From a virus: a stretch of DNA of 64,000 bases. Shown in pieces: positions 17,622-17,819 of the stretch (position 1 is its first letter; each line of letters starts with the position of its first letter). Where the stretch lies: positions 1 to 64,000 of IMG/VR virus record IMGVR_UViG_3300013131_000024, one strand, 5' to 3'. The translations under genes and the position numbers were made by a program. The notes beneath the pieces are model-generated. The model did not search any database, was not told the DNA's origin, and was given only the letters and a program-made list of their open reading frames with translations.

Positions 17622-17650
17622 TGGTTTTCAGATAGTTTTTGTCATATAAT
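17622..17650 (+). promoter_or_regulatory. putative pqqA promoter and leader hairpin
   Basis: TGGTTT, 17 bases, TATAAT: a strong -10 with a weak -35. Just downstream an inverted repeat ACATACT (17657-17663) and AGTATGT (17675-17681) lies in the leader before the AAAGGAG site of pqqA. Confidence 0.5.
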
Positions 17651-17704
17651 AGTGATACATACTGTTGCAATACAAGTATGTTTTATTAGCAAAGGAGAAA
17701 CACT

Positions 17705-17776
17705 ATGTGGACCAAACCAGCAGCAGTTGACATGAGATTTGGGTTTGAAGTAACGCTTTATGTTATGAACCGTTAA
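17705..17776 (+). CDS. pqqA: PqqA, precursor peptide of pyrroloquinoline quinone
   Basis: A 23-residue ORF with AAAGGAG 9 bases before ATG. It opens MWTKP, as PqqA does, and keeps [10 protein letters not shown] with Glu15 and Tyr19, the two residues that PqqE crosslinks and that become PQQ. Length and residue positions match bacterial PqqA exactly. It stands alone between a promoter and a terminator (17799); no other pqq gene is seen in the window, so the host must supply PqqB-E. PQQ is the cofactor of methanol, glucose and other periplasmic dehydrogenases. I know of no common phage pqqA. Confidence 0.9.
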   Translation: [23 protein letters not shown]

Positions 17777-17798
17777 TCAATCGGTAAAAACCAAAAAG

Positions 17799-17819
17799 GC
17801 CCGCTTCGGTGGGCTTTTT
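17799..17819 (+). terminator. pqqA terminator
   Basis: GCCCGC-TTCG-GTGGGC followed by TTTTTC; a tight tetraloop hairpin. Confidence 0.85.

Follow-up and report, generated by a model that had tools for sequence, protein, structure and literature searches.

We identified in a virus record a 72-base gene for PqqA, the precursor peptide of PQQ, and we propose, with a probability of roughly three in four, that the phage has in it a functional copy of the host pqqA gene which supplies the substrate consumed in making PQQ and so sustains methanol oxidation during infection. The window analysed here, a stretch of 64,000 bases, comprises bases 1-64000 of a 109,857-base IMG/VR virus record. PqqA in phages is already known as such; what is new is that the substrate gene is carried alone, that it recurs widely in unrelated phages and that it lies in a conserved expression unit.

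Identification of a PqqA gene in the virus record

The open reading frame at 17705-17776 (+ strand) has 23 codons (72 bases) and encodes a PqqA-type peptide of 23 amino acids, just as a sequence-only reading of this DNA had described it. The peptide exceeds the cut-offs of both families against which it was searched. Pfam PF08042 (PqqA) matched over model positions 1-19 of 19 (E = 6.4e-10; 39.2 bits, cut-off 21.1) and the NCBIfam equivalog TIGR02107 matched over model positions 1-21 of 21 (37.0 bits, cut-off 20). The phage peptide shares with bacterial PqqA its length, the full-length match to these models, a KP near the start, an RFGFEVT core and the residues Glu15 and Tyr19, both of which had been singled out in that first reading. 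Glu15 and Tyr19 are separated by three residues, the same spacing as in the pair Glu16 and Tyr20 that PqqE cross-links in M. extorquens PqqA (PMC10906245). No second PqqA match was found in the 109,857-base record by the profile search, the same search returned no match in 14 control genomes, and no family was found for the phage peptide in PHROGs. The identity of the phage ORF as a true PqqA is firmly supported.

The viruses carry pqqA without the rest of the pathway

The phage copy differs from bacterial PqqA in its setting, a virus without any further pqq gene. Profile searches of the whole 109,857-base record found no pqqB-E, no PqqE above the cut-off and no PQQ-repeat dehydrogenase, which extends to the entire record the earlier claim that no other pqq gene lies beside pqqA. 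Three ORFs of 315-361 amino acids at record positions 66973, 75691 and 84481, beyond the window, scored 19-25 bits against the PqqE model (cut-off 381) and are probably other radical-SAM proteins, not PqqE.

Across IMG/VR, homologues of pqqB-E were found near pqqA in none of the 240 viral loci listed, compared with 29 of 31 Pseudomonas-type loci, a contrast that is weaker than it looks because the putative hosts also hold pqqA apart from pqqBCDE. The phage gene differs from Pseudomonas-type pqq operons in having no pqqB-E neighbour, and none was found in the window's record. Such adjacency does not define PqqA: all three pqqA genes of a putative host genome lie away from its pqqBCDE operon. 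The orphan copies of putative hosts resemble the phage gene in being stand-alone, each with a ribosome site and a terminator. Better evidence for the absence of the pathway from the viruses is provided by scans of the same IMG/VR collection for PqqE and PqqC, each based on two short peptide patterns, both of which came back empty. PQQ alcohol dehydrogenase was found in none of 46 virus records tested, the window virus included.

Predicted expression signals of the viral pqqA gene

Judged by its sequence, the pqqA unit is a self-contained mini-gene with a putative -10 box, a leader hairpin, a strong ribosome site, the ORF and a terminator. Columns conserved among 18 relatives include the -10 box, TATAAT at 17645-17650 (+ strand), and the block TATAATAGTGATACATACT at the -10 region occurs only once in the window. 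The -35 region reads TGGTTT, a poor -35 box, and a consensus promoter scan does not report the pqqA promoter. The earlier statement that the gene has its own promoter is right only in part, because no good -35 box precedes the TATAAT, although the TATAAT itself is kept in the relatives.

A 5' leader hairpin (17657-17681, + strand; -7.0 kcal/mol), missed in the sequence-only reading, starts at the predicted transcription start, its first base 7 nt after TATAAT, and is formed by the arms ACATACT (17657-17663) and AGTATGT (17675-17681). Among the 18 relatives all 108 of 108 cells of this hairpin were paired (100%) and compensatory changes occurred in three of six pairs, which none of 500 shuffles reached; the covariation is clean but thin, because the double changes total only three cells. 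Stems of at least 7 bp were present in the leaders of 17 of the 18 lineage relatives, against 1.6 expected. Outside the lineage, hairpins of at least 7 pairs were found in 25 of 111 pqqA leaders against 5.8 expected, and there the leader sequence is not conserved whereas the peptide is.

The ribosome binding site, AAAGGAG at 17691-17697 (+ strand), stands 7 nt before the ATG, and its AAGGAG core is invariant across the 18 relatives in the leader alignment. Behind the ORF lies an intrinsic terminator (17794-17819, + strand) with an 11-bp stem, a TTCG loop and a T run (-17.7 kcal/mol for the fold of 17774-17822), which the relatives retain with a changed stem sequence. Both elements had been proposed from the sequence, and both hold up in this comparison. 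Beyond the lineage, terminators were found behind pqqA in 35 of 124 cases, compared with 2 of 372 random windows.

The unit is preceded by a glycosyltransferase gene (16599-17609, + strand; Pfam PF13692/PF00534). Directly behind the terminator a consensus scan reports a promoter-like site, TTGACA-17-TATAGT (17821-17849, + strand), which belongs to the next gene and is not part of pqqA. That gene (17880-18269, + strand) is a conserved phage gene of phrog_27048, to which no function is assigned, and it is a marker of the phage lineage.

The pqqA gene is under purifying selection in its lineage

Related viral loci were fetched with the phrog_27048 gene and with the DnaK gene of the window (25293-27191). 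A pqqA gene was present within the stretch in 28 of 160 lineage loci, usually upstream of the phrog_27048 gene. Exactly one pqqA was found in 22 of 50 long lineage contigs, mostly in the same place, and the other 28, some of which are fragments, showed none. Pairwise differences among 18 distinct lineage copies numbered 414, 374 and 1375 at codon positions 1, 2 and 3, respectively, and pN/pS was 0.17, or 0.25 when the codons used for finding the copies were excluded. With this range of 0.17-0.25 in 18 relatives, the lineage pqqA is under purifying selection on the protein, in keeping with an auxiliary metabolic gene.

Both reactive residues are retained. The Glu and the Tyr were kept in 154 of 154 copies re-found with both codons left free, a set in which the fetching pattern for loci L002-L121 had demanded Glu/Tyr and that for the window's lineage had not. 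Variants with Glu15 changed to Asp, Asn, His or Tyr, or with Tyr19 changed to Phe, were found zero times in the viral collection, compared with an intact pattern that matched 94 of L002-L121.

PqqA recurs in phages of methylotrophs

A tblastn search across 50,697 phage records found a PqqA gene in nine of the nine Methylophilales phage records returned (P19250A, Venkman, MEP301, MEP401, MEP402 and four Melnitz strains) and in the spring-water phage MW202481. Every phage with PqqA and a known host infects Methylophilales. The isolates are like the window virus in that each has a pqqA-type gene, of 23-24 amino acids; they are different in that their genomes, of 35-142 kb, belong to differing phage types. 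PqqA is named in the annotation of none of the nine Methylophilales phage records nor in that of MW202481. The annotations of Melnitz and MW202481 place a CDS across pqqA on the opposite strand.

IMG/VR was then scanned with two disjoint degenerate DNA patterns for pqqA, which returned at least 120 viral stretches encoding PqqA each and, being disjoint, at least 240 in all. When a set of 156 loci was compared, it fell into 45 groups sharing no immediate neighbour family, and the neighbours included major head proteins of different families, a single-strand binding protein, a translation repressor, an exonuclease and endolysins. PqqA queries of the Klebsiella and Methylorubrum types returned no further phages. 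The record 'Acinetobacter phage MD-2021a' (CAKLQF020000010.1) was rejected as a case of phage PqqA; it holds pqqABCDE, ppk, fur and chromosomal genes, and it represents bacterial DNA in a phage collection, because its pqqABCDE operon is accompanied by those chromosomal genes. Matches of lambda-type endolysins in the tblastn search (E ~3) were put down to chance.

On this comparison we lean towards regarding pqqA as a near-universal, overlooked hallmark of phages of PQQ-dependent methylotrophs, acquired independently many times by unrelated phages, and as the clearest auxiliary gene yielding a consumed cofactor substrate; the phages would replenish the dosage-limiting substrate and rely on the host for all the enzymes.

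Putative hosts share peptides with the phages

Bacterial genomes that share peptides with the phages carry 2-8 scattered pqqA copies. In complete genomes of 1.3 Mb, probably of the order Burkholderiales, 2-3 pqqA copies encode exactly the peptide of P19250A, a phage isolated on Methylophilaceae bacterium IMCC19250, and the second viral scan gave the same peptide at 52 loci among the matches listed. Bacterial genomes of 2.6-3.0 Mb have 7-8 pqqA copies, including exactly the commonest peptide of the first viral scan, again among the matches listed. Genome G662 (1.28 Mb, nearly the whole genome read) encodes the P19250A peptide too; its pqqBCDE genes form one operon, its three pqqA copies lie elsewhere, and it also encodes a PQQ alcohol dehydrogenase. 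We infer that G662 and its kin are Methylophilaceae, a family reported to have 3-12 pqqA copies with the other pqq genes in one set (PMC4109929). The PQQ pathway is present both in the genome sharing the P19250A peptide and in Methylophilaceae generally (PMC4109929). At the nucleotide level, one phage-isolate pqqA matches a host copy at 66 of 69 positions; the window peptide is identical to no host peptide found, and the best host copy agrees with its gene at 53 of 69 positions. The window virus's own host is presumably also a methylotroph.

Two other bacterial orders were tried as host candidates and dropped, one of them (G201) with 2-9 pqqA copies that encode another peptide. Within one family of the G201 order, scattered pqqA copies, 2-9 per genome, were present in 47 of 57 genomes, and nearly all of them encode a single identical peptide; PQQ dehydrogenase-like matches numbered up to 14.

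A proposed role in PQQ supply during infection

The presence of pqqA in methylotroph phages, as judged by sequence comparison, suggests that these viruses keep host methanol oxidation supplied during infection. Upon infection, a stand-alone pqqA message of ~160 nt would be transcribed, shielded by the 5' hairpin and the 3' terminator hairpin, and well translated; its stability is predicted from the structure of the leader RNA. Host PqqD would hand each phage peptide to host PqqE, which would join Glu15 to Tyr19, and host proteases, PqqB and PqqC would complete one PQQ per peptide. The phage gene may in this way hold up or raise PQQ, and thus the activity of PQQ-dependent methanol dehydrogenase, during the shutdown of host transcription. 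A single 72-base gene could do so, the peptide being consumed and, in methylotrophs, dosage-limiting. In the passage of PMC11317620 that cites the work, PqqA availability is described as rate-determining in Methylovorus sp. MP688. The pqqA gene of Methylorubrum extorquens has been reported as non-essential, and the orphan copies were left untested there (PMC11317620). That PqqA dosage limits PQQ is also supported by the fact that hosts multiply only pqqA and phages take only pqqA.

The initial proposal that the phage boosts PQQ supply in a host with pqqB-E finds support in comparison, that is, in the recurrence of the gene in methylotroph phages, the host-identical peptides and the pqqBCDE operon of G662. 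It had left the beneficiary as methanol or glucose dehydrogenase. The comparison lends the glucose branch no support, no Pseudomonas, Klebsiella or Acinetobacter phage with pqqA having been found save for contaminated records. Supply of the substrate is the best reading of the data. It agrees with three observations, namely that both reactive residues are retained, that the viruses lack all other pqq genes and that hosts multiply pqqA alone; a decoy, an RNA without a peptide function or passive cargo fits less well.

It is unlikely that PqqA serves another methylotroph process, such as lanthanide handling, and not the loading of methanol dehydrogenase as such. Orphan pqqA copies do respond to lanthanide supply, and a part for PqqA in the lanthanide uptake system has been suggested (PMC11317620), but the reactions known for PqqA lead to PQQ and the residues for them are kept in the phage peptides. 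The two uses are in any case compatible, since XoxF requires both lanthanide and PQQ. Less probable still is a decoy or inhibitor that occupies PqqD or PqqE and shuts down host PQQ synthesis or diverts its enzymes. The sub-micromolar affinity of PqqA for PqqD (PMC10906245) could allow PqqD to be titrated; a decoy, however, needs neither reactive residue, yet the copies of the window's lineage that were found without demanding Glu15 and Tyr19 still keep both, and the conservative mutants of either are missing from the viral collection. Many phage peptides are moreover identical to those of hosts and should therefore act as ordinary substrate.

We give little credence to pqqA as passive cargo, either as a host mini-gene gained by recombination and drifting without benefit or as host DNA misbinned as virus. 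Each host copy is a short free-standing unit that ends in a terminator of its own and would be easily picked up, and the isolate copy with 66 of 69 nt in common with a host gene agrees with such an origin. Set against this are the complete isolate genomes that carry pqqA, the purifying selection within the window's lineage, its occurrence in dozens of unrelated settings, next to phage genes for heads, lysis and replication, and the failure of pqqB-E ever to accompany the viral gene in the 240 loci listed or in the PqqE and PqqC pattern scans. Most improbable is that the conserved element is a small regulatory RNA with two hairpins and an incidental ORF, a reading that draws on the covarying 5' hairpin and the kept terminator but conflicts with the concentration of changes on third codon positions (1375 versus 414 and 374; pN/pS 0.17), with the invariant ribosome site and with the conservation beyond the lineage of the peptide and not of the leader sequence.

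Relation to previous work

The one phage PqqA that we found named before is that of the Lake Baikal virus population VP_266, reported in 2020, which also encodes a methanol dehydrogenase (PMC7678222); pqqA has also been listed among the viral genes of reservoir sediments (PMC13188868). The PqqA of VP_266 likewise occurs in a phage, one whose predicted hosts are Methylophilaceae, and was read as an auxiliary metabolic gene (PMC7678222). VP_266 differs by its methanol dehydrogenase, since the window virus and the 45 other records tested have no PQQ alcohol dehydrogenase, and its description concerns one case, with breadth, isolates, selection and leader structure absent there (PMC7678222). Phage PqqA goes unmentioned in the methylotroph phage papers PMC9004378, PMC8163748, PMC10580990 and PMC8024684, and we found nothing in the open-licence literature that notes pqqA in isolated methylotroph phages.

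Methylotrophs of the OM43 and LD28 types are important methanol consumers in lakes and coastal seas. Virus-sustained methanol oxidation would precede lysis if the PQQ precursor is supplied by their phages, and a 72-base gene missed by annotation pipelines would be a key part of the process. A parallel is found in psbA of cyanophages, an auxiliary metabolic gene that encodes a protein subunit. In both cases the phage would resupply a short-lived or consumable host component and keep energy metabolism running, but pqqA provides the chemical substrate of a cofactor whereas psbA provides a protein subunit. The gene offers a simple sequence marker for methylotroph phages in metagenomes, and its role can be tested directly in phage-host pairs already in culture, among them Venkman or Melnitz with OM43 strain H5P1, MEP401 with FZCC0133 and P19250A with its LD28 host.

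Other features of the virus record

The record also encodes nrdA/B, an endolysin, a PAAR spike-like protein and tRNAs; this content, together with the complete isolate genomes that have the same kind of gene, places a host-type metabolic gene in a bona fide virus genome. Within the window, phage DnaK (HSP70), GroEL and Hsp20 form a chaperone set close together at 25293-29736, a protein with an IMP dehydrogenase/GMP reductase domain (phrog_9582, 'dehydrogenase') is encoded at 22894-23928 and a phage D-alanyl-D-alanine carboxypeptidase (Peptidase_S11) at 39546-40256. At 49316-56770 lie some 29 tRNA genes, which together serve nearly all amino acids. Contigs with relatives of the window virus (L251, L360, L370 and others) reach 364 kb, which makes it probable that the 110-kb record represents part of a very large phage. 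A permuted, two-piece tmRNA gene at 13711-14081, with the tag ANAANDEVYALAA, matches Rfam tmRNA_permuted and beta_tmRNA, and the OM43 phage Melnitz likewise has a two-piece tmRNA (PMC9004378).
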